Assembly (NCBI RefSeq): GCF_014203795.1
Contig: NZ_JACHJU010000001.1
Span: 1,798,001-1,862,000 of the forward strand
DNA: 64,000 nucleotides
DNA from: Streptosporangium album
GTDB lineage: Bacteria; Actinomycetota; Actinomycetes; Streptosporangiales; Streptosporangiaceae
Direction of reading: 5' to 3'
A program made the position numbers and the translations under genes. The notes below the pieces were generated by a model, which saw only the letters and a list, made by a program, of their open reading frames with translations, did not search any database and had not been told where the DNA came from. Numbering within the stretch: the first letter of the stretch is position 1; each line of letters begins with the position of its first letter. Below, piece after piece: positions 5,169 through 26,007 of this stretch.

Positions 5169-5274
5169 GGGGCGACCCCGCAGGCCGTACGGCCCGGCGC
5201 GGAGCGCGCCGCGCATCCGGACACGGAGCGCGCCGCACGGTCCGGCACAGGGACGCCTCGGCAGGCGGTACGGC

Positions 5275-8200
5275 TCAGCACACCTGATCCCCGTTCTTGC
5301 TGACCGGGCAGCTCGCCCGCACGGCGCAGGTGCGGCAGCCGTCGTTGACCTTGGCCTGGAAGAACGGCCCGGACATGCCGAAGGCCACCGTGTCGACCAT
5401 GTCGCGGGCCCAGCCGGGCTCGGCGTCCTCCGACAGGGCCTGCTGGCTCTGCTCCTTGGCGTCCTTCTTGCCCGCGGCGTCGCCCACCTGGACCAGCGCC
5501 GCGCCGCCGGGCTCGGTCATCCCGTGCCGCTGGAAGGCGCCCAGCAGGGCGGCGAGCTGGTAGACGCCGAGCTGGGGGTGGCGTTCGATCTCGGCGTCCT
5601 TGGGGCCGTTCTTCCCGGTCTTGATGTCGATGATCACGGCTCGGCCCTCGGCGTCGCGCTCGACGCGGTCGACCCGTCCCTTGATCTGCACGCCCTCCGA
5701 CACCATGGCCGTGAACGCCTCCTCCAGGCCGACCAGCTCGCGCGGGTTCTCCCGGTGCCAGCGGACGAACTTGGAGATCATCTGCTCGGCGACCTTGCGC
5801 TGCTTGCGGTTGTACCAGAGACCGCCGAAGTCCAGCTCGTGCCAGATCTCGTCCAGGCGCTTGCCGAGGGTGTCCTCGGCGGGCATGCCGGTCGCGGCGA
5901 GCACGGCCAGCGCGTGGATGACGGTGCCCAGCCCCCGGGCCGCGTCGGTGCCGCTCGCCCCCACGGAGGTCTCCAGCAGCCAGCGCAGGCCGCACTTGGT
6001 GAAGTTCTCCACCGCCGAGGGTGAGACGCGCACGATGTCGTCGGGCCAGTTGAGCGGGCGGTCGTCGGAGATCGGCGTGAGGGCGTACCAGTCGTTGGGG
6101 TGGGCGCCGGGCACTCCGGCGGTGGCGAGCCTGGCCAGGTGCTCGGCGGCGGCCTTGCGGAGCGGCGCGGGCCGGGTCGGGTCGGAGACGGCCGAACGCA
6201 GGTCCGCCACCAGGGCGGACATGCTCAGCCAGCGGGAACGCTCGTCGACGACCGGCTCCCCGGTCGTGCCGGGCACCAGCTCGGTGAGGAACCGGGAGGG
6301 CCGCTCCTCGCTGTCGTCGCCCCCCACGGCGGTGACGATGAGCCTGCTCCTCGCCCTGGTCGCCGCCACGTAGAACAGGCGGCGCTCCTCGGCCAGGAGC
6401 TGGGAGGCCAGCGCCGCCGAGACCGCGGCCGGGTTCTCGTGCTCGGAGCCTCCCGCCCTGGCGACCATGTCGTCGGTGCTCAGGATGGACCCACGCAGCC
6501 GCAGGTCCGGCCAGGCCCCCTCCTGGACCCCGGCGGCGACGACGACGTCCCACTCCAGGCCCTTGGACCGGTGCGCGGTCAGGATCCGCACCGACTCGGT
6601 GTCGGGGGCGCGCTCGGCGAGGGAGTCGCCGGGGATCTCCTGGGCGACCAGGTCGTCGACGAACACCTCGACACCCGCGTGCGGCAGCCGGTCGACGAAC
6701 CTGGCCGCGTGGTCGAACAGCGCCACCACCGCGTCGAGGTCACGGTCGGCCATGGTCCCCCTGACCCCGCCGCCGACGCTCGTCTCGGTCCACTTCGCGG
6801 CCAGCCCGGTCGCCTGCCAGACGGTCCAGAGCACGTCCTCGGCGGTGCCGCCCCGCCGTACGGCCTCGGCGGCGCCGGAGATGAGCCGGGCCAGCCGCTC
6901 GGCGGGCAGTGCCACGTGCGGCTCCACCCGGACCAGCTCCCGCGCGTCCTTCAGCGCCGCGACCAGCAGCTCGCCCGACGAGCGCGGCCCGGAGACGTCA
7001 CGCTCACCGGAGTTGTCGACCATGTCGCGCTCGTCGGGGTGTGTCATCGCCTCGTGCTCGGCGATCCGCAGGGTCCTGCGCAGACGGCGCACACCGATCA
7101 TGTCGGTGCCGCCGAGCGCGCCGGTCAGCAGCTCCTCGGCCATCGCCTCGTCGAGGGTCTCCGGATGGAGCGCGACCTGGATGAGCCTGATCAGCGGGCG
7201 CACGCCCGGCTCCTGGAAGAGCGGCAGCTCGCCCCCGCCCACCACGACCGGCACCCCTGCCGCGACCAGCGCCCGGCGCAGCAACGGCACCTGGCGGGTG
7301 GCCGAACGGACCAGCACCGCCATCCTCGACCAGGGGACCCCGTCCAGCAGGTGCGCCCGGCGCAGCGCGTCGGCCACCACCGCGGCCTCCTGCGTGGCCC
7401 CGTCGGTCACCACCACCCGGACCTCGCCGGGCTCGACGTCCGGCAGGGGGCGCAGGTCCCGGTGGGCGGCGCCGCCCGGGGTCGCGGGCAGGCGGGCCGC
7501 GACGCGGCGGGAGGCCTTCAGCAGCTCCGAACCGCTGCGGCGGCAGACGCGCAGGGCGATGACGGGCGCCTTCTCTCCGTCGGCCCTGGGGAAGCTCTCC
7601 GGGAACCGCATGATCCCGCGCACGTCGGCACCGCGGAAACCGTAGATCGACTGGTCGGGGTCGCCGACGGCGATGAGGTCGCGGCCCTCCCCGGCAAGCT
7701 GCTGGAGCAGGAACTCCTGGGCGGGGTCGGTGTCCTGGTATTCGTCGACGAACACGACGTCATAGGCGGACCGCTCGCGGAGCCGCACCTCGGGATCGGT
7801 GAGCAGCCCACCGGCCGCGCGGATCAGCTCCGCGTAGTCGAGCACCGGCTCCAGGTCCAGGTCGAACCTGGACTGGTAGCGGTCCGCGAACCGGCCGGCG
7901 GCCACCCAGTCGGCGCGGCCGTGCCGGCGGCCCAGCTCGACCAGCTCGTCACCGTCGAGGCCGCGTTCGGCGGCACGGGCCAGGAAGTCACGGAGCTCCT
8001 GGGCGAACCCGCGGGTCTTGAGCGCCTCGTGCATGCCGTCCGGCCACTGCGGGGCGCCGTCCTCCAGCTCGCCGTGGAGCAGGCGGCGGATCTCCAGGAG
8101 CTGCTCGGGCCCCGTCAGCAGGCGGGGCGGCACGCCCCCGGCGAGCACGGCCTCGCGGCGGAGCAGCGCGTAGGCGTAGCTGTGGAAGGTGAGCGCGAGG

Positions 8201-12662: not shown

Positions 12663-13892
12663 TCACGGCCACGGTCTCCGGCCTTCCGCGTGCCGCGCCG
12701 GCGCCGGCGCGGTGAGCTCCGGGCGCCGGCTGAGCATCACCACGGCGCCGGTGAACGCGAGCAACCCACCGAGCAGGCCCGCGCCGTACAGCCAGAGCCG
12801 GACCGGATCGGGGCCGGGCCTGGCGGGCTCCTGATGCTGGAGGCCCGGGCCGAAGTGCTCGCCGGTCGGTGCCGGCACCTCCGCCGTACGGCTGATCAGC
12901 TCGCCCGCCCTGGCGAGTGCCGCGCCGGCGTCGACGACGCCGAACCCGATGTGGTCGTCGTATCCGGCGGCGGACGCGGATCTGGCGGTGGAGGTGAGGG
13001 CCTGTGACACCAGGTGCGGCGAGATATTCGGATATTTCGCTTTTATGAGTGCGGCGACCCCCGCCACCAGCGCGGTCGCCGCACTGGTCCCCTCCGAGGC
13101 GCCGTAGTCACCGCCCGGTGTCACCACCGGCACGTCCACACCCGGCGCGGAGACCAGGACCGACAGGTTGTCGCTGCTGAACAGAGCCGGTCTGTCCCCC
13201 GAGTCGACGGCGCCCACCCCGATGACCCCGGAATATCCGGCGGGGAAGTTCCAGAAGGAGGTGGCGTTGTCGAGGGCGTAGTCGGAACTGCCGTCGTTGC
13301 CGACGGCCGCGACCAGCACCACGCCCCGCGACAGCGCGTAGGAGACCGCCTCGCGCTCGGCCCTGTGCGGCCCGTAGGCGCCCAGGGACATGCTGACGAC
13401 CTCGGCCCCGTGGTCGGCGGCGTAGCGGATCGCTCGGGCCAGCGGACTGTCGGCCCCCGTCCGCTGGTCCTCCTCCGGCAGGGTGCTCTGGTCCCCGTTA
13501 CGCCGCAGCAGGACCACGGGCAGCGAGAGGATCCGGGCCTCCGGCGCGGTCCCGAGGAGGCCGCCGCCCCCCTTTCCCGCCCCGGCGATGAGCGAGGCCA
13601 TCGCGGTGCCGTGCCAGGCCTCCGCGGGCCCGTTCTCCGACGTCACCGAGCCCATGCCGGGCCCGGAGACGACCCGGCCGCGCAACTCCGCGACATGGCC
13701 GTCCACCCTGCTGTCCACCAGGGCCACGGTGACGCCCGCTCCCTTGGTGACCTTCCATGCCTGCTCGACGTTCAGCGCCTTCAGCACCCAGTGCTGGTCC
13801 TCGCGCACGTCGGCGGCGCCCGCCGGAGCGGCGACCATGACGGAGAGCGCGACCAGGACACCCGCCGCCCACGGCCGCCGGCGCCTCAGCAC
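12663..13892 (-). CDS. mycosin-like S8 (subtilisin) membrane protease, copy 1
   Basis: A 409-residue secreted, membrane-anchored subtilase. It has an N-terminal signal sequence (about 1-27), the triad Asp60 (LVDSRVDG), His94 (WHGTAMASL) and Ser270 (EGTSAATAL), oxyanion Asn199, and a C-terminal membrane helix followed by a short basic tail. This layout is that of mycosins (MycP) of type VII secretion, but no ESX genes are nearby. The GTG at 13892 is chosen because AGGGG precedes it and because it overlaps the upstream stop as GTGCTGA, exactly as in the second pair. An ATG at 13910 is possible. It pairs with the gene at 13886-14839. Confidence 0.85.
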   Translation of the reverse strand: MLRRRRPWAAGVLVALSVMVAAPAGAADVREDQHWVLKALNVEQAWKVTKGAGVTVALVDSRVDGHVAELRGRVVSGPGMGSVTSENGPAEAWHGTAMASLIAGAGKGGGGLLGTAPEARILSLPVVLLRRNGDQSTLPEEDQRTGADSPLARAIRYAADHGAEVVSMSLGAYGPHRAEREAVSYALSRGVVLVAAVGNDGSSDYALDNATSFWNFPAGYSGVIGVGAVDSGDRPALFSSDNLSVLVSAPGVDVPVVTPGGDYGASEGTSAATALVAGVAALIKAKYPNISPHLVSQALTSTARSASAAGYDDHIGFGVVDAGAALARAGELISRTAEVPAPTGEHFGPGLQHQEPARPGPDPVRLWLYGAGLLGGLLAFTGAVVMLSRRPELTAPAPARHAEGRRPWP

Positions 13893-14839
13893 ACGTTCCC
13901 CTGGGTGCACTGCGGTACGGCGCTCGGCTCGTCTCCCAGAGCCCGGGCGATGCGCCCGGCGACCGCCTGCGCCGTCGGCCAGAGCTCGCTGTGCAGAATC
14001 TCCTCGCGGGGGATCGACTCCCTGGTACGGCCGTCGCTGTAACCGGCCGTGGAGAAGACGACGTAGGGGCCGACCGGGACCCAGCCGTTGCGCTGCCGCT
14101 GGGCGGCGCCGAACAGCTCGGTCGCCGTTCCGGGAAACGCCACGGGCCGCACCCCCACCCGGTCGTCCACGGGGAGCTGGGCGGTCGCGGCGATCCGCGC
14201 CTCCTCGTCCCGGAGCACCGCGATGCCCACGGTGATCACGAACGTGGACGACTGGTCCACGTAGGAGGCCCGCAGCAACGTGCGGCAGCCGTACTGGGCG
14301 AGGACGGAGCCTGTCGGGGCGTCGACGCCGGACCTGCAGGAGACCTCGGGGGCGAGGCCGACCCGCCGGGCGTACTGCTGGGTCCGGCCGAGGCCGATGT
14401 ACTGCAACTCGACGGGGAAGACCAGGTCGGTGGACCAGGTGTGCCAGCGCCCGGCGATGTCGTCCTTGATGTAGCGGGCCTGTTCGGCGGAGGTCAGCGG
14501 CCGTGCGGCGGTCTCACGGAACAGCCCGGCCGCGCCGGCGAGCACGTCGCTCGCCCCGATCGCCAGGATGATGCCCATCAGGGTCAGGAAGATCGCACGG
14601 AACCGGATCCCCTGCTCCAGGGTCGCCAGCTCCACGCGCTCGACCGCCAGGCGGTCACGGCCGGCGGCGGGCCAGGCCCGGACCCGCCGGGTGCCGCCGG
14701 GAACGGGCGTGCGCCGTCCCGGCGCTCCCTTCGAGCGAGGCGGCGTCCGGGAACCGGGCGGCGGCCAGCCGTCACGGGCAGGAGGCGCCGAGGCTTGCGG
14801 GCGCCGTCCAGGCTCCTGCGGCCGCCCGGGCTTCGACAT
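13886..14839 (-). CDS. membrane-anchored protein with conserved cysteines, partner of subtilase copy 1
   Basis: A 317-residue protein: a Pro/Arg-rich cytoplasmic N-terminus of about 75 residues, one membrane helix near 80-105, then an extracytoplasmic domain. The domain is paralogous to the product of 16168-16902: both share FP....Y, RVG(L/I)(A/S)PE, a Cys before GVD, a GCR..LRA(S/T)Y block, VITVG/VVTVG and a late AFPGT, and both end in Cys. No known family is recognised. It is translated with the downstream subtilase through a GTGCTGA overlap. It may be a substrate, inhibitor or positioning subunit of the protease. A -10 box TAGCAT lies 6 nt before the ATG. Confidence 0.75.
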   Translation of the reverse strand: MSKPGRPQEPGRRPQASAPPARDGWPPPGSRTPPRSKGAPGRRTPVPGGTRRVRAWPAAGRDRLAVERVELATLEQGIRFRAIFLTLMGIILAIGASDVLAGAAGLFRETAARPLTSAEQARYIKDDIAGRWHTWSTDLVFPVELQYIGLGRTQQYARRVGLAPEVSCRSGVDAPTGSVLAQYGCRTLLRASYVDQSSTFVITVGIAVLRDEEARIAATAQLPVDDRVGVRPVAFPGTATELFGAAQRQRNGWVPVGPYVVFSTAGYSDGRTRESIPREEILHSELWPTAQAVAGRIARALGDEPSAVPQCTQGNVC

Positions 14840-14845
14840 ACTTCG

Positions 14846-14851
14846 ATGCTA
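14846..14851 (-). promoter_or_regulatory. putative leaderless -10 box
   Basis: TAGCAT (minus strand) ends 6 nt before the ATG at 14839, with no Shine-Dalgarno between. Confidence 0.4.
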
Positions 14852-14935
14852 CGTCGCAGGGCCTCGCCACCCCATCGTCGGAGTGTATTTGTGACGTCGC
14901 GTTCCGTGTGGGGCGGCCCCTCACGCTCCGCCCGG

Positions 14936-16174
14936 TCAGGGGGCCGGGGCCGGAGGCTCGGCCGTGTCATCCGCGGGCCCGCCCGCGGACCGTGCCCGGC
15001 CGGCGAGGACGACGATCACGGTCAGGGACGCGAGCGCGCCGAGTCCGGCGGCCACGGCCACCCCCACGTAAAGGGTGATCTTGCGCCGGTCCCGATGAAT
15101 CACCTGCACCGGATCCGCCCCCCTGCCCAGCGGGCGCGTGGGATCGTGGCCGGCGGGCCCCTGGGCGGTGAGGGTGTGACGGGAGATCCTGGCCGCCTCG
15201 GCGAGGGCCCGGGGAGCGTTGACCACGCCGAAGCCCATACCGGTGTCGTAGCCTCCCACCGGCCGCCGGATCGCCCCGGTGGTGAGCGCCTGCGCGACCA
15301 GCACGGGCGACATATTTGGATATTTCGCTTTAATCAGCGCGGCGACTCCGGAGACGAGTGCGGTCGCCTGCGATGTCCCGCGGCCGACCCAGTACGCGTC
15401 GCCGGGCCCCGCACCGAGGATGTCCACCCCGGGCGCGGCCACCAGGACCGAGGGGTTCCAGTTGGAGAACGACGCTCTGCGCAGCCCGCGGTCCGCCGCG
15501 GCGACCGAGACCACCCCGGGGAAGGCCGCCGGGTAGGAGTAGGGGGCGTAGCCGGTGGAGTCGGGCTTGCCCGCCCCGTCGTTACCCGCCGCCGCGACGA
15601 GCACGACCCCCCGGGAGATCGCATACCGGATCGCCGCCCGCTCCTCCTTGGTCGCCAGCTCCTTGGAGATCGACATATTGATCACGCCCGCGCCCTGGTC
15701 CACGGCGTATCTGATGCCCTGGGCCACCACGTTCTCGAACCGCTCGGCGGTGTTGAACTCCCGGAACCCCGGTTCCTCGTCCTCCAGGATCACCCGGACC
15801 GACAGCACCCGCGCCCTGGGCGCGACGCCGACCACCCCGTCCGCCCTGCCGGGCCCATGCCCGTGCCCGGCGATGAGCGAGGCCATGTAGGTCCCGTGCA
15901 ACCGCAGAGGGGTGACTCCCGGTGGGTTGGCCCCCGCGGTGAAGTCCTTGCCCACGGTCACCGAGCCCGCCAGGTCGCGGTGGCCCGGGTCCACCCCCGA
16001 GTCCAGCACCGCCACCGTCACGCCCCCGCCCTCGGAGATCCGCCAGGCACGGGGCAGGTCGAGGGTCCGCAGCACCTGGCGCTGGCTGCCCCTCACGTCG
16101 TCGGCGTGCGCGGCCGACGCCGGCCCCAACGCGATCAGGGCCAGCACCGCGGCGACGGCGGCCCGTCTCAGCAC
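14936..16174 (-). CDS. mycosin-like S8 (subtilisin) membrane protease, copy 2
   Basis: A 412-residue paralogue of the protease at 12663-13892. It has a signal peptide (about 1-25), the triad Asp58 (VLDSGVDPGH), His93 (RLHGTYMASL) and Ser268 (GRGTSQATAL), Asn198, and a C-terminal membrane helix. The GTG at 16174 is preceded by GAGGAG with 5-nt spacing and overlaps the upstream stop codon as GTGCTGA, the same geometry as copy 1. An in-frame GTG at 16180 overlaps the ribosome site. Both copies carry a run of rare A/T-rich codons for KAKYPN just after the catalytic-serine helix. Confidence 0.86.
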   Translation of the reverse strand: MLRRAAVAAVLALIALGPASAAHADDVRGSQRQVLRTLDLPRAWRISEGGGVTVAVLDSGVDPGHRDLAGSVTVGKDFTAGANPPGVTPLRLHGTYMASLIAGHGHGPGRADGVVGVAPRARVLSVRVILEDEEPGFREFNTAERFENVVAQGIRYAVDQGAGVINMSISKELATKEERAAIRYAISRGVVLVAAAGNDGAGKPDSTGYAPYSYPAAFPGVVSVAAADRGLRRASFSNWNPSVLVAAPGVDILGAGPGDAYWVGRGTSQATALVSGVAALIKAKYPNMSPVLVAQALTTGAIRRPVGGYDTGMGFGVVNAPRALAEAARISRHTLTAQGPAGHDPTRPLGRGADPVQVIHRDRRKITLYVGVAVAAGLGALASLTVIVVLAGRARSAGGPADDTAEPPAPAP

Positions 16175-16902
16175 CGCCACTCCTCGGAGACGCAGTCGGG
16201 ACTCATGGGCGTGGACAGGTCGGCGAGGATCCTGTCGGCGATGTCACCGGCGAACGCGAACATGGTCGGCCGCTGCTCCCCCACCGCCTTACCGGGGCGG
16301 CCGTCGGTCTGGCCGATCGTGGTCATCACCACGTACGGCCCGGCCTGCCGTACCAGACTGCTCTGCCGGCCCGCCGAGGTGAAGCGGTCGGCGACCGTGC
16401 CGGGGAAGGCCAGTGCCTTGAGGCCAGGGGAGGGACGACCTCCCCTGGGCAGCGCCGCCCTGGCCTTGGCCGCGCCCAACTCCCCCGCGAAGGCCGCCAC
16501 ACCGACGGTGACGACGACGCCCTGGAGCGCGTCGATGTAGGTGGCGCGCAGGATGCCCCGGCAGCCGGCCCGCCGCAGCGCCTTCGTCAACGTGCTGTCC
16601 ACCCCTCTGTCACAGCGGGTCTCAGGTGAGATGCCCACGCGATGGGCACTCTCCTCGCCCCCCTGTTCGGCGGCATAGCTGATGGCGTCGGGAAAGATCC
16701 GCCCCGCGGGCCACACCTGCCAGCGCAGGGCCATCTCGTCGTCGGCGGCCTGTTCCAGCTCCGTCTGGCTGGGGCCGCGCGTGAACTCCGCTCCGGCGGT
16801 GCTCGAAGCCACCCACGCCACCACCGCGCAGATCAGCGTCAGTGCGGACGCCATGACCAGCGTCAGCCACGGAGGCCGCCGCCGACCTGGGGCTCCGTTC
16901 AC
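16168..16902 (-). CDS. membrane-anchored protein with conserved cysteines, partner of subtilase copy 2
   Basis: A 244-residue protein with one N-terminal membrane helix (about 14-32) and an extracytoplasmic domain paralogous to the product of 13886-14839: FPDAISY, RVGISPETRC, GCRGILRATY, VVTVGVA and LAFPGT align, and it also ends in Cys. It lacks the long Pro-rich N-terminus of copy 1. The family is not recognised. It is the first gene of the second protease pair. The start is a GTG with -10 box TAAGGT 7 nt upstream. Confidence 0.74.
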   Translation of the reverse strand: MNGAPGRRRPPWLTLVMASALTLICAVVAWVASSTAGAEFTRGPSQTELEQAADDEMALRWQVWPAGRIFPDAISYAAEQGGEESAHRVGISPETRCDRGVDSTLTKALRRAGCRGILRATYIDALQGVVVTVGVAAFAGELGAAKARAALPRGGRPSPGLKALAFPGTVADRFTSAGRQSSLVRQAGPYVVMTTIGQTDGRPGKAVGEQRPTMFAFAGDIADRILADLSTPMSPDCVSEEWRC

Positions 16903-17078: not shown

Positions 17079-18260
17079 TCAGTAGGTCGGCAGGCTGGGG
17101 TCGACCGTCTTGACCCAGCTCAGCACGCCGCCACCCACATGGACCGCGTCGGAGAAGCCGGCGTTCTTGACGATCGCCAGCACCTCCGCCGACCGGGCAC
17201 CGGACTTGCAGTGGAGAACGATGCGCTTGTCCTGCGGGAGCTTCTCCAGCGCGGAGCCGTTGAGGAACTCACCCTTGGGGATGAGCACGGCACCGGGAAT
17301 GGAGACGATCTCATACTCGTTCGGCTCGCGGACGTCGATGACGTAGATGTTCTCGTCGGCGTCCTGCAGGGACTTGAGCTCGGCCGCGGTGATGGTGGAG
17401 CCGGAGGCCGCCTCCTGCGCCTCCTGGGAGACCGCGCCGCAGAACGCCTCGTAGTCCTCCAGGAGCTCGGTGACCGTCGGGTTCTTGCCGCAGAGCACGC
17501 ACTCGGGGTCCTTGCGGACCTTGACCGTGCGGTAGTTCATCTCCAGGGCGTCGTAGATCATCAGACGGCCGACCAGGGGCTCGCCGATGCCGGCGAGGAG
17601 CTTGATGGCCTCGTTGACCTGGATGGAGCCGATGGACGCGCAGAGCACGCCGAGCACGCCGCCCTCGGCGCAGGAGGGGACCATGCCGGGGGGCGGGGGC
17701 TCGGGGTAGAGGCAGCGGTAGCAGGGACCGTGCTCGGCCCAGAACACGCTGGCCTGCCCGTCGAAGCGGTAGATGGAGCCCCAGACGTACGGCTTGCCGA
17801 GGAGGACGGCCGCGTCGTTCACCATGTAGCGGGTGGCGAAGTTGTCGGTGCCGTCCACGATCAGGTCGTACCGGGAGAAGATGTCCATGACGTTGTCGGT
17901 GGTGAGCGCCATGGTGTGGACGACCACGTCGACCAGCGGGTTGATCTCCCTGACACTGTCCGCGGCGCTCTCCGCCTTGAGGCGGCCGACGTCCGACTGG
18001 CCGTGGATGACCTGACGCTGCAGGTTGGACTCGTCGACCACGTCGAAGTCGATGACCCCGAGCGTGCCCACGCCCGCGGCCGCGAGATACAGCAGCGCGG
18101 GGGAGCCCAGGCCGCCGGCGCCCACGCAGAGCACCTTGGCGTTCTTCAGGCGCTTCTGTCCGGCCATGCCCACGTCGGGGATGATCAGGTGGCGCGAGTA
18201 ACGGCGCACCTCGTCGACGGTCAGCTCGGCTGCCGGCTCTACCAGCGGTGGCAACGACAC
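17079..18260 (-). CDS. moeZ: adenylyltransferase/sulfurtransferase MoeZ (MoeB-ThiF domain plus rhodanese)
   Basis: A 393-residue protein. The N-terminal ThiF/E1-like domain adenylates the C-terminal glycine of small sulfur-carrier proteins (Rossmann motif GAGGLGSP, zinc ligands CYRC and CVLC). The C-terminal rhodanese domain carries the persulfide cysteine in HCKSGARS. MoeZ proteins activate MoaD- and ThiS-like carriers for molybdopterin, thiamine and sulfur amino acid synthesis. Start GTG with GGGAG 7 nt upstream. The gene lies downstream of the hydrolase gene on the same strand with a hairpin between. Confidence 0.93.
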   Translation of the reverse strand: MSLPPLVEPAAELTVDEVRRYSRHLIIPDVGMAGQKRLKNAKVLCVGAGGLGSPALLYLAAAGVGTLGVIDFDVVDESNLQRQVIHGQSDVGRLKAESAADSVREINPLVDVVVHTMALTTDNVMDIFSRYDLIVDGTDNFATRYMVNDAAVLLGKPYVWGSIYRFDGQASVFWAEHGPCYRCLYPEPPPPGMVPSCAEGGVLGVLCASIGSIQVNEAIKLLAGIGEPLVGRLMIYDALEMNYRTVKVRKDPECVLCGKNPTVTELLEDYEAFCGAVSQEAQEAASGSTITAAELKSLQDADENIYVIDVREPNEYEIVSIPGAVLIPKGEFLNGSALEKLPQDKRIVLHCKSGARSAEVLAIVKNAGFSDAVHVGGGVLSWVKTVDPSLPTY

Positions 18261-18293
18261 AGTTCTGCTCCCGTTTCAGGGGGTCTTGAGGGG

Positions 18294-18313
18294 GCGTGCT
18301 GAGCACAGCACGC
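18294..18313 (-). terminator. hairpin between the hydrolase gene and moeZ
   Basis: GCGTGCTG (18294-18301) pairs with CAGCACGC (18306-18313), loop of 4 nt. It is placed to end the hydrolase transcript or to shape the moeZ 5' UTR. Confidence 0.45.
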
Positions 18314-18338
18314 ACCATTCACAACCTAACGCGGTGCC

Positions 18339-19247
18339 TCAGTCATTCCCAATCGAGACGGAGGCAGTCTCACCTATCAGGCGCCGGGCCTCCCGGGCCA
18401 CTCTCTCGGGCAGTTCCATCTGCGCCACGTGCCCGGCGTCGGGCAGGAGCACCAGCCGCACATCGGGGAACGTCCGCCCGGCCCGCGCGGCCATGCGCGG
18501 GTTGACGAGCCGGTCGTGGCGGCCGTGGATGACCAGCGTGGGGGCGGTCACCTCGGCCGCCTGCCGCCACAGATTCTCCTCGCCGCGCCGGAAGTACTCG
18601 GCGACGAGACCTCGCGCCGAGCCGACCAGCGCGGCCGCCGCGTACGGCAGGCCGTCCCTGCGGCGCAGCTCTTCGGCCGCCTCACGGAGCCGCTCCGGAT
18701 GGACCCTGCCGAGGTCGGCGTAGCACATGCCGAGCGTGGCGTTGAGCCTGCGCTCGGCGGGCAGGGCACTCAACTGCGTCGCGGCCCACTCCCCCAGCCT
18801 CGGTACCGCCGACAGGGCCACCCGTGCCGGGCCGTACCTGGGGAGCAGGTCGGGCAGGGCCGGTGAGATGAGCGTGAGCGAGCGGACCAGCTCCGGACGG
18901 GTCGCGGCGACCCGTACGGATATCGCACCGCCCATGGAATTGCCGAACAGGTGGACGGGTCCGTCGGCGACCCGCTCGATCAGCGCACCGACGGTTCTGG
19001 AATAGGCGTCGACGGAGTAGTCACCGCCGGGGTCCTCCGGTGAGTGCCCCGCTCCCGGCAGGTCGAGCGCATGGCCGGTGACCACATCGGACAGCTCGCC
19101 CATCAGGTCGGTCCAGTTGGTCGCCGAGCCCGCGAGGCCGTGCACGTAGACGGCGGTCTCCCGAGGCCCGGGCGGGGTCGACCGCACGTGAATCCGCTGC
19201 TCTCCCAGGTCGACCAGCTCACCCGGCCAGTTCGAGATCGGCTCCAT
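18339..19247 (-). CDS. alpha/beta hydrolase
   Basis: A 302-residue alpha/beta hydrolase fold protein: oxyanion segment YVHGLAGSA, nucleophile elbow GNSMGG, an acid in HGRHDRLV and the catalytic His in DAGHVAQ. The substrate is unknown. M. tuberculosis LipV occupies a comparable place beside the adnAB/moeB cluster, which makes an esterase role possible. The ATG at 19247 is chosen because GGGGGG precedes it and the frame upstream runs into AT-rich DNA. Confidence 0.82.
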   Translation of the reverse strand: MEPISNWPGELVDLGEQRIHVRSTPPGPRETAVYVHGLAGSATNWTDLMGELSDVVTGHALDLPGAGHSPEDPGGDYSVDAYSRTVGALIERVADGPVHLFGNSMGGAISVRVAATRPELVRSLTLISPALPDLLPRYGPARVALSAVPRLGEWAATQLSALPAERRLNATLGMCYADLGRVHPERLREAAEELRRRDGLPYAAAALVGSARGLVAEYFRRGEENLWRQAAEVTAPTLVIHGRHDRLVNPRMAARAGRTFPDVRLVLLPDAGHVAQMELPERVAREARRLIGETASVSIGND

Positions 19248-19367
19248 GCCCCCCACGTCCTTCCCTGCTCGCCTCCACTCCGACGATAGCCGCCCGCCGT
19301 CCACCCGCCTACCAAAAGCGACATTAAAGACATATAGCAGCAAAACAATTAATAAGAGTCTTATATT

Positions 19368-19537
19368 GTCGATAAAGAGATAAGCTAAGGGTAAAAGCCG
19401 CCAATCTCCGTTTGTCCCCCAACGTGGGCGGAAATCAAGACTGCGAGGGGTGGACCTTTATGGACCATCCAGGGCATTTTCCAATTACTCCGGAAAATGT
19501 CAGTGAGGGCAACCGATCCTTTCAAGGGGGAAACGCA
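19368..19537 (+). promoter_or_regulatory. conserved 5' leader, unit 1
   Basis: Contains GTCGATAAA (19368-19376), CAATCTCCGTTT, the hairpin CATTTTCC (19475-19482) with GGAAAATG (19492-19499), and AAGGGGG (19524-19530) eight bases before the ATG. The region 19291-19380 upstream is unusually AT-rich for this genome. Confidence 0.6.
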
Positions 19538-19909
19538 ATGCCCATGTTCAAGAGCGTCTTCGCAGGACTCGCCATCAGCACGGCGCTGGCCGGCGGGATC
19601 GTCAGCCTCGGCGCGGCGACCACCATGACCACCGCCAACGCCGCCGTGGCCCAGACCACCATCGGCGCCTTCCAGACCTGCGGCGGCTGCGGCGGCGGCT
19701 GCGGCGGCGGCTGCAACCGTGATCGCCGCTTCGAGCGCAGGCACTTCAGACTGAGGATCTTCACCAACAACCGCAACCACAACGACGTCCGGGGCGACAA
19801 CGACCAGGCGCAGGCCCAGCGCGAGTTCCAGTGGAACCGCAGGAACGAGAACCGCAGGAACGAAAGGGATCAGCAGGGCCCCGCCGCGCCTCCCGCCGGC
19901 GGCCTCTAG
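19538..19909 (+). CDS. small secreted Cys/Gly-rich protein, copy 1
   Basis: A 123-residue protein of unrecognised family. Residues 1 to about 38 are a Sec-type signal peptide ending near ANAAVA. The mature part starts with a C-GG-C-GGG-C-GGG-C cluster, then a basic stretch and RLRIFTNN, VRGDN, QAQ and FQWNR blocks shared by all four copies; the C-terminus (RNERDQQGPAAPPAGGL) is unique to this copy. The pattern suggests an exported protein with disulfides or metal-bound cysteines. The ATG is set by AAGGGGG; an open frame continues upstream but is not needed. Confidence 0.75.
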   Translation: MPMFKSVFAGLAISTALAGGIVSLGAATTMTTANAAVAQTTIGAFQTCGGCGGGCGGGCNRDRRFERRHFRLRIFTNNRNHNDVRGDNDQAQAQREFQWNRRNENRRNERDQQGPAAPPAGGL

Positions 19910-20146
19910 TCGCTCAACCGGGGTCGCGGCGCGGCGCGTGGCCGGGTCATCTGACCACGCGCGGCCGGATCCACGGCCGTGATGAGTTCGGGCCCATGGC
20001 GGAGGGGCCGAGCGCCCGTATTCACCGAGATTGCCGTTACCCACGGAAAGGCAGCGGCCACGGAGAGAAGTCGGGCTCCTCGAAAGAGGCTCGGCAACCC
20101 GGCGCTCAGCCGGTGGTGACACCGGTCGCCCACGGCCTTCCAGGTG

Positions 20147-20178
20147 GGGGCTCCGCGATTTTCGAAACGCGGAGCCCC
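20147..20178 (+). terminator. terminator of unit 1
   Basis: GGGGCTCCGCG (20147-20157) pairs with CGCGGAGCCCC (20168-20178). It lies about 240 nt past the stop codon, at the end of a conserved 3' spacer. Confidence 0.7.
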
Positions 20179-20396
20179 TAATTCACGGAAGTCGCGTTTC
20201 ACCGGAGGAAAATCCACGCCGACCGCCCCATTCACAGGAGACCCCATCCTCTTCGGGGCGTTCTCTTCGGCACGCTCGGCCGGTGTCACACCTCCCCCCA
20301 TGCCCTTTCAGTGCTTTTTCCTTACGGCTTCGAGATCGACAGGCGGCACGGCCACAAGATCGGCTGTCGCCCCCTTTCCCGTGAGGACGATCTCCA

Positions 20397-20566
20397 TTGT
20401 CGATAAAAAGACAGTTGACATTAAAGGCCAACAATCTCCGTTTATCGACCAAGGCGGACGGAAATCAAGAATTCAGGGATGGCCCACTATGGACCGTCCA
20501 GGACATTTTCCGGTCACCCTGGAAAATGTCAGCGCGGGCAACACATCCTTTCAAGGGGGAAACGCA
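20397..20566 (+). promoter_or_regulatory. conserved 5' leader, unit 2
   Basis: Contains TTGTCGATAAA (20397-20407) and AATCTCCGTTTA. The leader hairpin is here a perfect 10 bp: GACATTTTCC (20502-20511) with GGAAAATGTC (20521-20530). AAGGGGG lies eight bases before the ATG. From 20179 to 20396 no gene is seen. Confidence 0.6.
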
Positions 20567-20893
20567 ATGCCCATGTTCAAGAGCGTCTTCGCAGGACTCG
20601 CCATCAGCACGGCGCTGGCCGGCGGAATCGTCAGCCTCGGCGCGGCGACCACCATGACCACCGCCAACGCCGCCGTGGCCCAGACCACCGCCGCCGGCTT
20701 CCAGACCTGTGGCGGCTGCGGCGGCTGCGGCGGCGGCTGCCGCCGCGACCGCCGTCGCGAAAACCACCGTTTCAGGCTGCGGATCTTCACCAACAACGAC
20801 AACCGCAACGACGTCCGGGGCGACAACGACCAGGCACAGGCCGAGCGCCAGTTCCAGTGGAACCGCAGGAACGAGAACGCGAACGACGACTAG
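20567..20893 (+). CDS. small secreted Cys/Gly-rich protein, copy 2
   Basis: A 108-residue paralogue with the same signal peptide. The cysteine cluster is C-GG-C-GG-C-GGG-C, followed by RRDRRRENHRFRLRIF, TNND, VRGDN, QAQAERQFQWNRR, and a short acidic end (ANDD). It is shorter than copies 1 and 4 because it lacks a C-terminal tail. Function unknown. Confidence 0.75.
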   Translation: MPMFKSVFAGLAISTALAGGIVSLGAATTMTTANAAVAQTTAAGFQTCGGCGGCGGGCRRDRRRENHRFRLRIFTNNDNRNDVRGDNDQAQAERQFQWNRRNENANDD

Positions 20894-21114
20894 TCAGAAC
20901 GCGGCACGTGGTCGAGACGTCTGACCACGCGCGACCGATTCACGGTCGCGACGAGCTCCGGCCCAGGGCGGAAGGGCCGAGCGCCCGCGTTCACTGAGAC
21001 CGCCGCCCTCGACATGAAGACGGCGACCGCACAGGGAACGCGGGCACCTCGAAACGGGCTCGAGAATCCGGAACTCAGCCGAGGATGACACTGATCGTCC
21101 ACGGCAATCCGGGT

Positions 21115-21146
21115 GGGGCTCCGCGGCTTTCGAAGCGCGGAGCCCC
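21115..21146 (+). terminator. terminator of unit 2
   Basis: GGGGCTCCGCG (21115-21125) pairs with CGCGGAGCCCC (21136-21146), about 220 nt after the stop. Confidence 0.7.
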
Positions 21147-21257
21147 TACTCCACGGAAAGCGCATTTCGCCACCGAGACACTCGTGCCGGACTGCACGCT
21201 TTTCCTTTATGGGAAGCCTTCTCATTCACCGGGACGACCTCCCTGAAAAACCTCGCC

Positions 21258-21426
21258 ATCGACAAAAATATGACCGAGATTAAAATCTGCCAATCTCTGT
21301 TTATTGTCTGATATGGGAGGAAATAAAGTCTATGAGGGATGGGCCGCTATGGACCATCCAGGACATTTTCCAATCACTCTGGAAAATGCCAGTGCGGGCA
21401 ACACATCCTTTCAAGGGGGAAACACA
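21258..21426 (+). promoter_or_regulatory. conserved 5' leader, unit 3
   Basis: Contains ATCGACAAA (21258-21266), GAGATTAAA, CAATCTCTGTTTATTGTC, and the hairpin CATTTTCC (21364-21371) with GGAAAATG (21381-21388). AAGGGGG precedes the ATG by eight bases. The segment 21147-21257 holds no gene. Confidence 0.6.
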
Positions 21427-21759
21427 ATGCCCATGTTCAAGAGCGTCTTCGCAGGACTCGCCATCAGCACGGCGCTGGCCGGCGGGATCGTCAGCCTTGG
21501 CGCGGCGACCACCATGACCACCGCCAACGCCGCCGTGGCCCAGACCACCGCCGTCGGCTTCCAGACCTGTGGCGGCTGCGGCGGCTGCGGCGGCGGCTGC
21601 CGCGAACGCCGCTTCGACCGGCGCCGCGAGCACTTCAGGCTGCGGATCGCCACCAACAACGACAACCAGAACATCGTCCGGGGCAGGAACGACCAGGCCC
21701 AGGCCGAGCGCCAGTTCCAGTGGGATCGGGAGCGCAGGAACAACAACAACGAGGAGTAG
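21427..21759 (+). CDS. small secreted Cys/Gly-rich protein, copy 3
   Basis: A 110-residue paralogue. Same signal peptide; cysteine cluster C-GG-C-GG-C-GGG-C; basic linker RERRFDRRREHFRLRI; then ATNND, VRGRND, QAQAERQFQWDRERR and an Asn/Glu-rich end. Function unknown. Confidence 0.75.
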   Translation: MPMFKSVFAGLAISTALAGGIVSLGAATTMTTANAAVAQTTAVGFQTCGGCGGCGGGCRERRFDRRREHFRLRIATNNDNQNIVRGRNDQAQAERQFQWDRERRNNNNEE

Positions 21760-21982
21760 TCCGAGCGCGGTGCATGACCGAGACATCTGACCGCGCACGG
21801 CCGGATTCACGGCCGTGATGAGCTCCGGCCCGCGGTGGAAGGGCCGAGCGTCCGTGTTCGCCGTGGTCGCCGTCCTCCGCGGGAGGACGGCGACCACGTA
21901 GGGAACACGGGCACCTCGAAACGGGCCAAAAACTCAGGAAAAAGCCGAGGATGAAATTTATTGTCCACGGCGTTCCGGGCGG

Positions 21983-22012
21983 GGGCTCCGCGGCTTTCGA
22001 AGCGCGGAGCCC
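21983..22012 (+). terminator. terminator of unit 3
   Basis: GGGCTCCGCG (21983-21992) pairs with CGCGGAGCCC (22003-22012). Confidence 0.65.
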
Positions 22013-22217
22013 TCGCTCCATGACAAGCGCATTTCCAGCCGAGGCATTCACGCCGGACGGCGCGCTTCTCCTTTACGGGAAGCCCTCTCCCCTTCCGCGC
22101 CATTCTTTCCGGCATGCCCGGCCGGCGCTCTCTCCCTCCCCGCGCCCTTTCGCCGCGCACTTTCCTGGTGGTCTCCACACCGGCGCGCAACGCGGCCAGC
22201 CGATCGGCAGGCGCCCC

Positions 22218-22285
22218 CTCTCCGACGGGACACCTCACTATGGGCGATCTTCTCTCCGACGGGACACCTCACTAAGGGCGATCCT
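22218..22285. repeat. 34-bp tandem duplication between units 3 and 4
   Basis: The segment beginning CTCTCCGACGGGACACC occurs at 22218-22251 and again at 22252-22285 with three differences. It lies just before the unit 4 promoter region. Confidence 0.7.
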
Positions 22286-22289
22286 CGAT

Positions 22290-22459
22290 GTCGATAAAAA
22301 CCACAACCGAGATTAAAGGTCGCCAATCTCCGTTTATTGTCCGATATGGGAGGAAATCAAGTCTATGAGGGATGGGCCATCACGGACCATCCCGGACATT
22401 TTCCAATCACTCTGGAAAATGCCAGTGGGGGCAACACATCCTTTCAAGGGGGAAACGCA
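22290..22459 (+). promoter_or_regulatory. conserved 5' leader, unit 4
   Basis: Contains GTCGATAAA (22290-22298), GAGATTAAAGG, CAATCTCCGTTTATTGTC, and the hairpin CATTTTCC (22397-22404) with GGAAAATG (22414-22421). AAGGGGG precedes the ATG by eight bases. Confidence 0.6.
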
Positions 22460-22834
22460 ATGCCCACGTTCAAGAGCGTCTTCGCGGGACTCGCGATCAG
22501 CACTGCACTGGCCGGCGGAATCGTCAGCCTCGGCGCGGCGACCACCATGACCACCGCCAACGCGGCCGTGGCCCAGACCACCATCGGCGCCTTCCAGACC
22601 TGCGGCGGCTGCGGCGGCGGCTGCGGCTGGCGGCGCTGCGGCTGTGGCGGCGGCTGCCACCGGCGCTGCGACCGCGACCGCCGTCGCGAGCACATCAGGG
22701 TGCGGGTCATCACCAACAACCGCAACACCAACATCGTCAGGGGCGGCAACAGCCAGGCGCAGACTCAGCGGCAGTTCCAGTGGGACCGTGAGGACGCCGC
22801 CGAGCGTGCCGCGCTCGCCGAAGGCGGTCTCTGA
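22460..22834 (+). CDS. small secreted Cys/Gly-rich protein, copy 4
   Basis: A 124-residue paralogue with the signal peptide of the other copies but an expanded cluster of seven cysteines: C-GG-C-GGG-C-GWRR-C-G-C-GGG-C-HRR-C. The rest follows the family (RRREHIRVRV, TNNRN, VRGGNSQAQTQRQFQWDRE), with a distinct C-terminus rich in Ala and Glu. Variation between copies is concentrated in the cysteine cluster and tail. Function unknown. Confidence 0.75.
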   Translation: MPTFKSVFAGLAISTALAGGIVSLGAATTMTTANAAVAQTTIGAFQTCGGCGGGCGWRRCGCGGGCHRRCDRDRRREHIRVRVITNNRNTNIVRGGNSQAQTQRQFQWDREDAAERAALAEGGL

Positions 22835-23082
22835 CCTTCCAGCCGGGTCGCACCTTGACCTGAGCACGGTAGGTGGTCGAGACGTCCGGCCACACGTGAG
22901 CGGACCACGGTCATGACGAGCTCCGGCCCATAGGCGGAAAAGGGCCGGGCGCCCGTATCCACCGGCAACCACCGCCCTCCACGAGAAGGCGACGGTCCAG
23001 CGGAAAACGCGGGCACCTCGGAACAAGCACACAACCCGCGCCTCAGCCAAGGCGACATCGGTTATCAACCGTATTACGGAGG

Positions 23083-23115
23083 GGGGCTCCACGGCTTTTC
23101 GAAGCGCGGAGCCCC
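23083..23115 (+). terminator. terminator of unit 4
   Basis: GGGGCTCC (23083-23090) pairs with GGAGCCCC (23108-23115); the inner part has one A-C mismatch compared with the other copies. The spacer 22835-23082 holds no gene. Confidence 0.6.
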
Positions 23116-23374
23116 TATTCCATGGCGGACCGACCCCTTCGACCGGCGCTCATGCCGGGCAGCGCGACTTTCTTCTGCGGGGAACGGCCTTCTCCACCGG
23201 CAAAGGCAGGGTGGCCGTCCAGTACCACACCGCCCGGTTCCGGCTCGTGCCCTCCCTCGCCAAGGCTCTCAACGTGCCGACCCCGCCGATCCGCAAACCC
23301 GGATCGGTGTGGATCGAAAGGATGTCGGCGGAGAGCACCGTGTCTGCGGCGGCGAGCTGCGAGTGCAGGTGGTC

Positions 23375-23927: not shown

Positions 23928-24800
23928 CTAACGGCTGTCCGCAGGTTCCTCGACCCCGTTCTCCTCGGTGTCCTGATCACCCACGGACTCGGCCGGCGCC
24001 TTCTCCCGGACCGGCGTCCTTCCGCCGCTCCCTTTCTTGGCCGCCTCGACACTGGCCCGCAGCGCGGCCATCAGATCAGCCGGCGGCCCCTCCTCGAGGG
24101 GAACCTCCGCGGGGACGACCTCCCTGCCCTCGACCTTCGCCTCGATGACCTCCTGGAGTGCCTCCCGGTAGGCGTCCCTGTGCGCGGAGGGGTCGAAATC
24201 CGCGACCATCGTCTCGATCAGCGACTCGGTCAGCCTCGCCTCCTGGAGGAGGACGTCGACGTCCTCCTCCAGGAACGGGAAGTCCGCGACACGCACCTCG
24301 TCCGGCCAGAGCATGGTCTCCAACAGGAACACCCCGTCCCGGACCCGGAGCACCGCGAGCGACTCGCGCTGCCGCAGCGCCACCTTGACGACCGCCACCA
24401 GGCCGGACCGCGCCAGCGCGTCGCGGAGCAGCACGTACGGTTTGATCCCGACGGCGTCCGGCTCCAGGTAGTAGGCCTTGTCGAGCATGATCGGATCGAT
24501 CTGGTCGGCCGGGGTGAACTGAAGCACCTCGATCCTGCGCGAGGTGGACAACGGCAGGTCCTCGAAGTCGTCGTCGGCGAGCACGACCATGTCACCGGTG
24601 GGGAGTTCGTACCCCTTGGCCACGTCGGCGAACGGAACCTCCTCCCCGCACACCTGGCAGACCCGCCGGAACCGGATCCGGCCCGTGTCCTCCCCGTGCA
24701 CGAGATGGAAGGCGACGTCGCGGCGCTCCGTCGCGCTGAACAACCTGACCGGGATGGTGACCAGCCCGAACGAGACCGCGCCTTTCCAGATGCTCCGCAT
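23928..24800 (-). CDS. ku: Ku protein (non-homologous end joining)
   Basis: A 290-residue bacterial Ku. It begins MRSIWKGAVSFGLVTIPV, the family signature, and keeps the Ku core to about residue 255, followed by a Lys/Glu-rich tail. Homodimeric Ku binds double-strand ends and recruits LigD for end joining. No ligD lies in the window. GGGAG 6 nt before the ATG supports the start. Confidence 0.95.
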   Translation of the reverse strand: MRSIWKGAVSFGLVTIPVRLFSATERRDVAFHLVHGEDTGRIRFRRVCQVCGEEVPFADVAKGYELPTGDMVVLADDDFEDLPLSTSRRIEVLQFTPADQIDPIMLDKAYYLEPDAVGIKPYVLLRDALARSGLVAVVKVALRQRESLAVLRVRDGVFLLETMLWPDEVRVADFPFLEEDVDVLLQEARLTESLIETMVADFDPSAHRDAYREALQEVIEAKVEGREVVPAEVPLEEGPPADLMAALRASVEAAKKGSGGRTPVREKAPAESVGDQDTEENGVEEPADSR

Positions 24801-24966
24801 GGCGTCTCCCTACCCTGGAGCTTCCCATTGATTTTCGCACACGGGTTCGGAAGTGTCGCCGGACGGGCACAGGCACTCACCAACGAGCCAGGTACCCGTC
24901 ATGGCAGATCCGATGCCATGCCTTTCTCGGCAGGCGGGTACGGACGCCGTACGCTTGGCGGTGTCC

Positions 24967-24996
24967 AGTGTTCGCAGGAGAAGTGTTCGCAGGAGA
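24967..24996 (+). repeat. 15-bp tandem duplication in a promoter region
   Basis: AGTGTTCGCAGGAGA occurs twice head to tail (24967-24981, 24982-24996), just before the ribosome site of the gene at 25012. GTACGGACGCCGTAC upstream is a palindrome overlapping a TACGCT -10-like box. Confidence 0.7.
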
Positions 24997-25011
24997 ACGG
25001 AGGCGGGGCGG

Positions 25012-25317
25012 ATGCCAGAGATGGAAGTACGCGACGACAGCCCGCACGGCGAAGAGCCCGACGTTCCCTCCGAGGAGATCGGGATCGAGGCGCCGGAGGC
25101 CGACGCGGTCGAGCAGCATCGCCCCGTGCGCGAGGACACCCCCGATCAGCCCGAAGAGATCTCGCCCGAGATGCCGGAGGCCGACGTGGCAGAGCAGCAC
25201 CGCCCCGTGCGCGAGGACGGCCCGGAATGGCCCGACCACATTCCACTCGAGGCCGATCCCGCGGACACCGCCGAGCAGAGCCGCACGGTGGAGACCGACG
25301 AGGACGATTATCGCTGA
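25012..25317 (+). CDS. small acidic repeat protein, function unknown
   Basis: A 101-residue, strongly acidic protein, probably disordered. It holds three degenerate copies of a motif: PEADAVEQHRPVRED, PEADVAEQHRPVRED and PADTAEQSRTVETDE. There are no membrane segments or cysteines. The start at 25012 has GGAGG nine nt upstream. No family recognised. Confidence 0.65.
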   Translation: MPEMEVRDDSPHGEEPDVPSEEIGIEAPEADAVEQHRPVREDTPDQPEEISPEMPEADVAEQHRPVREDGPEWPDHIPLEADPADTAEQSRTVETDEDDYR

Positions 25318-25377
25318 CCCCGGTTACCCGCGCGTAGGATGATTCACGACAACAGGAGCACCCGCGAGGAGAACGCC

Positions 25378-26007
25378 GTGACCGCTACCCCGGACGCCAA
25401 GCCCCGGGGCACCCGGCTGCCCCGGCTGGCCCGTCGCCGCCAGCTGCTCAGCGCGGCGCAGGAAGTCTTCGTGGAGAACGGTTACCACGCGGCGGCGATG
25501 GACGACATCGCCGAGCGGGCCGGGGTGAGCAAGCCGGTGCTCTACCAGCACTTCCCGGGCAAGCAGGAGCTCTACCTCGCCCTGCTCGACCTGCACGTGG
25601 ACGACATGATCGCCCGCTGCCGCGACGCCCTCGCCTCCACCACGGACAACAAACAGCGTGTCCAGGCCGCGATCGGCGCCTTCTTCGACTTCGTCTCCAA
25701 CCAGGGCGAGGCGTTCCGCCTGGTCTTCGAGTCCGACCTGCGCAACGTCGCACCGGTCCGCCAGCGGATCGAGCGCAACCTCCGTGAGAGCGCCGAGATG
25801 ATCAGCCAGGTCATCCAGGAGGACACCGGCTGCTCAAGCGACGAGGCCCGCCTGCTGGGCGTCGGCATGGTCGGCATGGCCGAGGTCAGCGCCCGATACT
25901 GGATAAGCAGCAACGGCTCCATTCCCAAGGACGCCGCCACCCAGCTCATCGCCCGCCTGTCCTGGCGCGGCATCTCGGGCTTCCCTCGCACGACGGCCGA
26001 GCACTGA
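25378..26007 (+). CDS. TetR-family transcriptional regulator, FasR-like
   Basis: A 209-residue TetR regulator. The N-terminal helix-turn-helix reads AAMDDIAERAGVSKPVLYQHFPGK; the rest is a ligand-binding helical domain. The gene is followed by a DUF3107 gene, as M. tuberculosis fasR (Rv3208) is followed by Rv3208A; FasR controls fatty acid synthase genes there. The same role here is inferred from sequence class and neighbour. GTG start with AGGAG upstream; TAGGAT at 25334-25339 is a plausible -10. Confidence 0.83.
   Translation: MTATPDAKPRGTRLPRLARRRQLLSAAQEVFVENGYHAAAMDDIAERAGVSKPVLYQHFPGKQELYLALLDLHVDDMIARCRDALASTTDNKQRVQAAIGAFFDFVSNQGEAFRLVFESDLRNVAPVRQRIERNLRESAEMISQVIQEDTGCSSDEARLLGVGMVGMAEVSARYWISSNGSIPKDAATQLIARLSWRGISGFPRTTAEH

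Follow-up and report, generated by a model that had tools for sequence, protein, structure and literature searches.

Between 19.4 and 23.1 kb of a 64,000-nucleotide (nt) stretch of the Streptosporangium album chromosome (9.02 Mb genome; contig NZ_JACHJU010000001.1, positions 1,798,001 to 1,862,000 of the forward strand; this whole stretch is referred to here as the window), four tandem units each encode a small protein with a predicted signal peptide. The question raised by this locus is what kind of product is made from genes whose expression and export signals are nearly constant and whose mature sequences vary. The first-pass annotation had described a four-copy array of an unrecognised secreted protein family; the array was confirmed by a repeat finder and by its open reading frames (ORFs), and relatives were detected, far above chance, in 16/16 genomes of the genus. 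Within the genus, the leader and the promoter-like element preceding these genes were shown to be paired with this protein family alone. The explanation which we prefer, with a confidence falling just short of even, is that the units belong to a private developmental regulon of secreted, disulfide-linked, disordered proteins of an outer sheath or matrix.

All four units were found to follow the same order on the plus strand: a GTTT-N16-GGAAAT element, a leader of ~110 nt, a ribosome-binding site (RBS) with the common sequence AAGGGGGAAAC, an ORF, a 3' stretch and a hairpin. The repeat finder reported them as a 300-nt direct repeat, the other copies matching the reference one at 80, 85 and 90 %; their start-to-start spacing is 1029, 860 and 1033 nt, and the ORFs start at 19538, 20567, 21427 and 22460, each after AAGGGGGAAAC(A/G)CA-ATG. 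Copy 1 is represented by a putative promoter element at 19410..19435 with AAAA located 13 nt before GTTT, a leader at 19430..19540 (through the ATG; 128.2 bits with the leader model R1 described below) whose opening six bases are the GGAAAT of that element, two modelled leader hairpins at about 19448-19470 and 19473-19501, a coding sequence at 19538..19909 (123 amino acids, aa; four Cys) specifying a signal peptide followed by a mature part rich in Cys, Gly, Arg and Asn, and a terminator-like hairpin at 20147..20178. The corresponding element, leader, coding sequence and hairpin of copy 2 are located at 20440..20465 (upstream AAAG, not AAAA, and outside the strict promoter pattern), 20460..20569 (115.1 bits), 20567..20893 (108 aa, four Cys) and 21115..21146; those of copy 3 at 21299..21324 (AAAA upstream), 21319..21429 (122.4 bits), 21427..21759 (110 aa, four Cys) and 21982..22012; and those of copy 4 at 22332..22357 (upstream AAAG, not AAAA), 22352..22462 (126.6 bits), 22460..22834 (124 aa, seven Cys) and 23083..23115. 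The earlier proposal that each copy has its own promoter, leader and terminator holds in that an element, a leader and a hairpin were found in each; the hairpins (GGGGCTCC..GGAGCCC, at 20147, 21115, 21982 and 23083) are pattern matches without a U-run and are absent from the list of a T-run terminator scan. Plain sigma-70 and T-run terminator scans added little. In the S. album genome, clear protein matches were limited to the four copies, with the fifth-best match at an expectation value (E) of 0.04.

In each ORF, a basic start and a hydrophobic core are followed by an AxA-type end (MPMFKSVFAGLAISTALAGGIVSLGAATTMTTANA) and then by a CGG-rich, Arg/Asn-rich mature part; between the window copies, signal-coding DNA is 93-99 % identical and mature-part DNA 59-77 %. 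For copies 1 to 3, these values are 98-99 % and 62-77 %, respectively, and their identity over the signal to the counterparts in the closest relative (locus L080) is 92-96 %. Because identity between these paralogues exceeds that to the L080 counterparts, the signal-coding DNA of copies 1 to 3 appears to have been homogenised within the genome; copy 4, with 93-95 % to its paralogues and 96 % to its L080 counterpart, does not show this. For the leader of copy 1, identity is 99 % with the L080 counterpart and 80-81 % with the leaders of its paralogues. Among the conserved blocks listed previously, TNN, VRG and QAQ....FQW were found in all four copies, RLRI was limited to copies 1 to 3 (RVRV stands at that place in copy 4), and the tails, described as unrelated, do differ, with a GGL end common to copies 1 and 4. 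The VRG/QAQ/FQW core proved to be local to close relatives and was rejected as a definition of the family: the mature part is different in other genera, and members elsewhere share the leader and the signal peptide instead. The pattern of constant export signal and regulation with a variable mature end was supported, and could be extended to 187 leader sites and to other genera.

A protein search with copy 2 as query identified 44 sites in the 16 genomes of the genus (E ≤0.001); with a relative as query, the family sample yielded matches in 33/150 genomes and 12/68 genera, a single genome having as many as 11. What members have in common across genera is the signal peptide. Mature parts differ by genus: Microtetraspora has HNRNHNRQHQ repeats and NGGNGG tails, Nonomuraea has GWGWRRCGWGWG-HHRHH with V.V.N.N, Planotetraspora has short FQDEDFTNF forms and Sphaerimonospora has WNNNNWWNN.

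The leader was tied to this family by searches with R1, a model of 14 leaders with two hand-set hairpins. R1 retrieved exactly the four copies in the S. album genome (150 of 1185 initial candidates scored) and 44 sites in the 16 genomes of the genus at E ≤0.01, of which 42 coincide by coordinates with the 44 protein sites. The two leader sites off the protein list, apparently of S. amethystogenes, precede degenerate ORFs, and the two protein sites without a leader match are second copies, apparently of S. sandarakinum and S. pseudovulgare. In both of these second copies (L084 7340-7726 in S. sandarakinum and the matching copy in L089 of S. pseudovulgare), the signal peptide is kept. At E ≤1, R1 matched 156 times in a total of 52 loci; 150 of these matches and 37 of 38 from a later search make up the 187 leader sites, a few of which are counted twice (L118 and L193, on contigs of equal length, 126,923, look like one record). 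The model end coincides with an ATG in 186/187 sites and, by a crude rule, a signal-peptide ORF follows the leader in 184/187, the exceptions being two degenerate ORFs and L107, in which the ATG lies one base further on. The leader was found in 40/150 genomes of the family sample, 89/249 genomes (13/57 genera) of the order sample and 9/394 genomes of the class sample, and every genome listed with a match belongs to the array's own genus or family; these searches used stricter filters and scored 25, 15 and 9 candidates per genome, respectively, such that weak outside members could escape. With matches in 14/68 genera of the family sample, the leader model is a finder for family members: four leader-positive genera (g12, g31, g39 and g68) gave no protein match, and the GGGYGGHHGGHGGYG protein of genome G045 was reached by the leader-first search and missed by the protein search. 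No sample searched yielded the leader outside this family.

A promoter-like element accompanies the leader. In the window, GTTT-N15..17-GGAAAT occurs on either strand at four sites only (19410, 20440, 21299 and 22332). Among 166 non-redundant sites anchored on the leader start, GTTT lies 16 nt (131 sites) or 15 nt (21 sites) before GGAAAT, i.e. at a spacing of 15-16 nt in 152/166; the spacer is weakly conserved, and an A-rich block precedes the element. The pattern AAAA-N12..14-GTTT-N15..17-GGAAAY was found at 36 sites in the 16 genomes, all 36 at leader starts by coordinates, and at 0 sites in a reversed control; it is present in exact form in 36/44 leaders, its last six bases being the first six of the model. 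In PMC8346170, the promoters of Streptomyces coelicolor SigB homologues are described as having an almost invariant G at -10 positions 1-3 and A at position 5, with GTTT being more conserved in SigF, SigH and SigN promoters; PMC4282423 gives the sspA promoter as GTGT-N16-GGTTAC. The element AAAA-N13-GTTT-N16-GGAAAY, whose GTTT-N16-GGAAAY geometry is nearly fixed (SigB-type promoters have 12-14 nt between hexamers, or 14-16 after GTTT), may represent a sporulation-type SigB-family promoter. Of 22 matches in the S. album genome, two are SigBFG factors that exceed the cut-off.

The chromosomal address of the array is also kept. As assigned by Pfam and synteny, the left border (17079..19343) consists of genes for a ThiF/rhodanese protein (moeZ-like; 17079-18260, minus strand) and an alpha/beta hydrolase (18339-19343, minus strand), and the right border (23928..26007) of genes for Ku (23928-24800, minus strand) and a TetR regulator (25339-26007, plus strand). 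This address was found in Streptosporangium, Nonomuraea, Microtetraspora, Planotetraspora and Microbispora. With the window neighbours as probes, at least one of moeZ, hydrolase, Ku and TetR was detected in 32/33 loci, L107 having none. A border gene was present on both sides in 42/57 loci, where all leader sites counted lie between the borders (42/42); the other 15 have one border or none in the stretch, several of them ending at contig ends. L188 to L190 have the left border alone within the stretch taken, L107, L178, L181, L185, L186 and L191 seem to be copies at other genomic positions, and the genus loci L079, L081 and L095 keep TetR with no Ku seen. The first set of loci was picked for large arrays, which biases copy number and not address.

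The 173 distinct family proteins have a median length of 117 aa, and their mature parts contain G 16.4, N 12.3, R 11.9, H 7.3, D 6.2, Q 5.4 and W 4.1 %. Of 79 representatives below 60 % identity, 55 have an even, non-zero number of Cys residues, 10 an odd number and 14 none; even/odd counts for other residues are balanced for Trp (35/38) and His (41/34) and lean odd for Gln (16/43) and Lys (13/41). The p-value of this Cys parity (1e-8) is weakened by the shared descent of the members. Because Cys numbers are strongly even, we infer that disulfides are formed, and the parity fits disulfides better than shared metal sites.

This composition bears on two other proposals. It is unlikely, in our estimate, that the array encodes peptides with an antimicrobial or signalling role, rich in Trp, Arg and Gly and cationic on average, that are secreted and diversify under a constant signal. 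Such a constant signal with a variable mature end is seen in defence-peptide families, basic residues exceed acidic ones in the mature parts (R 11.9 plus K 2.3 vs D 6.2 plus E 3.2 %), and Trp/Arg/Cys clusters such as GWGWRRCGWGWG occur in Nonomuraea members. However, the chromosomal address is fixed, many members are HNRN-repeat or Asn/Trp-rich, unlike the usual antimicrobial type, and no immunity or dedicated export gene was recognised among ten neighbours scanned with Pfam, seven of which had matches (inter-copy stretches were listed for ORFs only). Somewhat more doubtful still is extracellular binding of Cu, Zn or Ni through Cys and His clusters, to which CGGCGGGC and His-rich stretches, His contents above 12 % in 33/173 members and at least four Cys in 40/173 would lend themselves; against it, 14/79 representatives are devoid of Cys, the parity favours disulfides, the control region would appear to be sigma-type, and no metal regulator or transporter was found among the seven Pfam-assigned neighbours. 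From the first-pass suggestion of a surface, structural or metal-binding protein, a structural or surface role is retained as the favoured, unproven option, and metal binding as a common function was not supported in view of the representatives without Cys and the even Cys numbers.

Regarding the leader itself, sequences from different genera can be aligned over the ~150 nt preceding the start, and those farther upstream are kept in parts only (39-54 % identity between the window copies). For the best 150 of the 156 R1 matches, 87.6 % of cells pair vs 73.3 % in shuffles, 394 double-change cells were counted vs 122.7, and the covariation score is 0.423 vs 0.199±0.006, these strongest numbers being biased because the alignment was fitted to the structure; from the same alignment, RNAalifold alone predicted 15 pairs, all among the 19 modelled. 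Checks with less bias point the same way. The unfitted 14-sequence alignment scored 0.216 vs 0.172±0.013, with 0/500 shuffles as high, and the mean fold-energy z was -2.49 (90 of 113 non-redundant leaders folded). Compensatory base changes are present in the leader hairpins, and the conserved leader was shown to be a structured RNA with two covarying hairpins. A conserved CCUUU beside the AAGGGGG RBS could sequester the latter; it is nearly invariant and hence no evidence in itself. No Rfam family reached its gathering score in five loci, the three matches at E ≤1 in the window region fell far below gathering scores with none on the leader, and no terminator or aptamer-like core was recognised in it. 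The leader thus resembles the structured 5' leader RNAs of Rfam cis-regulatory families in its conserved covarying hairpins directly upstream of the RBS, and differs from them in having neither an Rfam match nor a recognised aptamer-like core; it may act in mRNA stabilisation or translational control. We consider it improbable that the hairpins are DNA operators for a repressor and not RNA structure: several copies have a nearly perfect palindrome as their second hairpin (inverted repeats I5, I7 and I8), and folding of the antisense strand is good too (z -2.03), but pairing is kept while the sequence varies, and G-U cells exceed A-C cells (19 vs 10 without fitting of the alignment, 231 vs 113 with it).

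The description of the family as unrecognised was borne out by searches of Pfam, NCBIfam and PDB sequences, in which its members matched no known family (hmmscan thresholds were E ≤10 for the four window proteins and E ≤1 for 10 diverse members). Odd matches below cut-offs, e.g. DUF6587 (E 1.1 and 0.69), DUF2967 (E 0.046), TIGR04117 (E 0.03), MAP_0585 (E 0.0025; 17.9 of 170 bits) and a Polycomb EED insertion (E 0.004; 17.6 of 27 bits), were rejected as kinship because they are consistent with shared composition. That the ORFs are precursors of ribosomally synthesised and post-translationally modified peptides (RiPPs), with Cys repeats modified by a radical S-adenosylmethionine (SAM) or similar enzyme, is highly improbable: the weak TIGR04117 match (Cys-Xaa-Xaa-Xaa radical SAM target, E=0.03) of copies 1 and 4 scored 14.4 bits vs a cut-off of 50, no modifying enzyme was found among the seven Pfam-assigned neighbours of the ten scanned (three had no Pfam match), the signal peptide is Sec-type and some members have no Cys. 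Structure prediction, proposed earlier as a check, was run with AlphaFold and returned a mean predicted local distance difference test (pLDDT) value of 45.1 and a predicted template modelling score of 0.14, which reflects either no fold or too shallow an alignment. Among the best-ranked titles of a full-text literature search, none dealt with the protein family or its leader.

Among known systems, the best reading is that the family works like chaplins and rodlins without being a chaplin member. Chaplins (PF03777, ChpA-C), which form an exoskeletal amyloid in Streptomyces, are likewise small, secreted, multi-copy proteins of aerial actinomycetes under developmental control, the latter being presumed for the present family, which differs from them in its hydrophilic low-complexity mature parts and in having no conserved domain. 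Predicted secretion (by the crude signal-peptide rule) and multi-copy arrays are both found here, and the even Cys numbers may be likened to the Cys pairs of chaplins. Membership of the chaplin family was rejected, as PF03777 gave no match in the 14 members scanned with hmmscan (four window proteins and 10 diverse ones). Chaplin domains do occur elsewhere in the genus, with four to eight PF03777 matches per genome in 16/16 genomes; the six of S. album are all located at G000:C1:3067455-3068570, outside the window, and none at the array. These six ChpA-C matches lie in one 592-aa open frame, and those of the genus mostly lie in one long frame, i.e. a multi-domain chaplin vs the many short ones of Streptomyces. 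NepA, a spore-wall protein, offers a further comparison. Spore proteins of the NepA/SspA type are controlled by SigN/SigF in Streptomyces and would be similar to the present family with respect to SigB-family promoters, which are putative in the latter; nepA is a putative SigN target (PMC4282423). The rodlins RdlA and RdlB are, like the products proposed here, secreted sheath proteins of aerial hyphae and are reported to be obvious in streptomycetes only (PMC4255298). No rodlin model was matched in the general Pfam/NCBIfam scans of members, in which no rodlin-specific search was included.

According to the preferred explanation, i.e. a developmental regulon of sheath or matrix proteins, the four genes would be one species' version of an array present across part of the Streptosporangiaceae, mostly at one address. 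Each gene would possess its own SigB-family-like promoter, two-hairpin leader, strong-looking RBS, Sec-type signal peptide and terminator, such that every unit would act as a stand-alone, high-output export cassette. The payload would be a short, disordered, low-complexity chain, rich in Gly, Asn, Arg, His and Trp and usually with an even number of Cys, which would be secreted, disulfide-bonded and probably laid down on aerial hyphae, spores or sporangia as part of their outer sheath or matrix. It would drift fast while the cassette parts stay fixed because selection would hold bulk composition rather than sequence, and the combination of constant expression and export parts with a free product points to bulk structural or matrix material made at one life stage. 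We infer SigF/H/N-type control, developmental timing, disulfides, disorder, a structural role and the location. A lineage-specific sheath or matrix family is favoured over the antimicrobial, metal-binding and RiPP proposals with confidence that is about evenly balanced. If right, these genes would provide candidates for the lineage-specific coat or matrix proteins of a large actinomycete group known for producing antibiotics. They would also add a leader RNA family that is new to study, and a natural set of low-complexity protein cassettes that are short and self-contained and evolve fast. A bolder version, which we regard as possible though distinctly less probable, is that the regulon, carried by the Streptosporangiaceae at a single ancestral address in the chromosome, is defined not by its product but by the cassette (promoter, leader and signal peptide), which would be unused elsewhere in the genome and accept almost any low-complexity, disulfide-bonded sequence forming condensates or fibres, and that it supplies the main lineage-specific sheath material of sporangia and spores; it would then be a bacterial counterpart of the fast-evolving silk, byssus or eggshell gene clusters.

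Several observations count against the developmental regulon. Since chaplin domains are present in the genus anyway, it does not strictly require another coat family. Weak protein matches without a leader match were obtained in three genomes of two genera (G062; G103 and G126). Within the window, copies 1 and 3 carry the exact promoter pattern and copies 2 and 4 an AAAG block, and the third base of the -10-like GGAAAY is A, not G as in the SigB consensus GGG(A/T)A(A/T) (PMC8346170). Copy 4 has an odd number of Cys (seven), and with 14 related sequences behind the low pLDDT, disorder and a shallow alignment are indistinguishable. As to the leader, pairs with any double change number 19/19 vs 17.0 in shuffles, with 32/500 shuffles reaching 19; RNAalifold on an unfitted MAFFT alignment of 50 leaders returned a 4-pair RBS mini-hairpin only and missed the two hairpins, which show after the structure is hand-set on the seed alignment or on the model-fitted alignment; and the folding of the antisense strand belongs here as well.

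Further features were observed in and around the array. The 3' stretches (window 19910-23125; about 230-290 nt per unit, from the stop codon through the terminator-like hairpin) form a predicted string of hairpins. Across the four window copies and four of the closest relative, they show a mean column identity of 74 % and are highly paired by prediction; in these eight sequences, double changes were seen in 13/73 pairs and the covariation term was unfavourable. Two subtilase genes (Peptidase_S8) are located on the minus strand at 12663-13910 and 14936-16180, each adjoining a gene without a Pfam match (13886-14839 and 16168-16902, respectively; 12663-16902 overall), and other genomes have relatives of these genes next to the array, with gene order preserved. 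Just upstream of the copy-4 control region, at 22218-22285, a stretch of 34 nt is duplicated in tandem (94 % identity). Finally, the S. amethystogenes locus L095 contains two full leaders and a third, shortened one (5247-5360, 5950-6003 and 6966-7079); the full leaders precede degenerate ORFs (MPKFKGV, then unrelated or tail sequence) and the shortened leader precedes an intact gene, which may be signs of recombination and birth-and-death inside the array.

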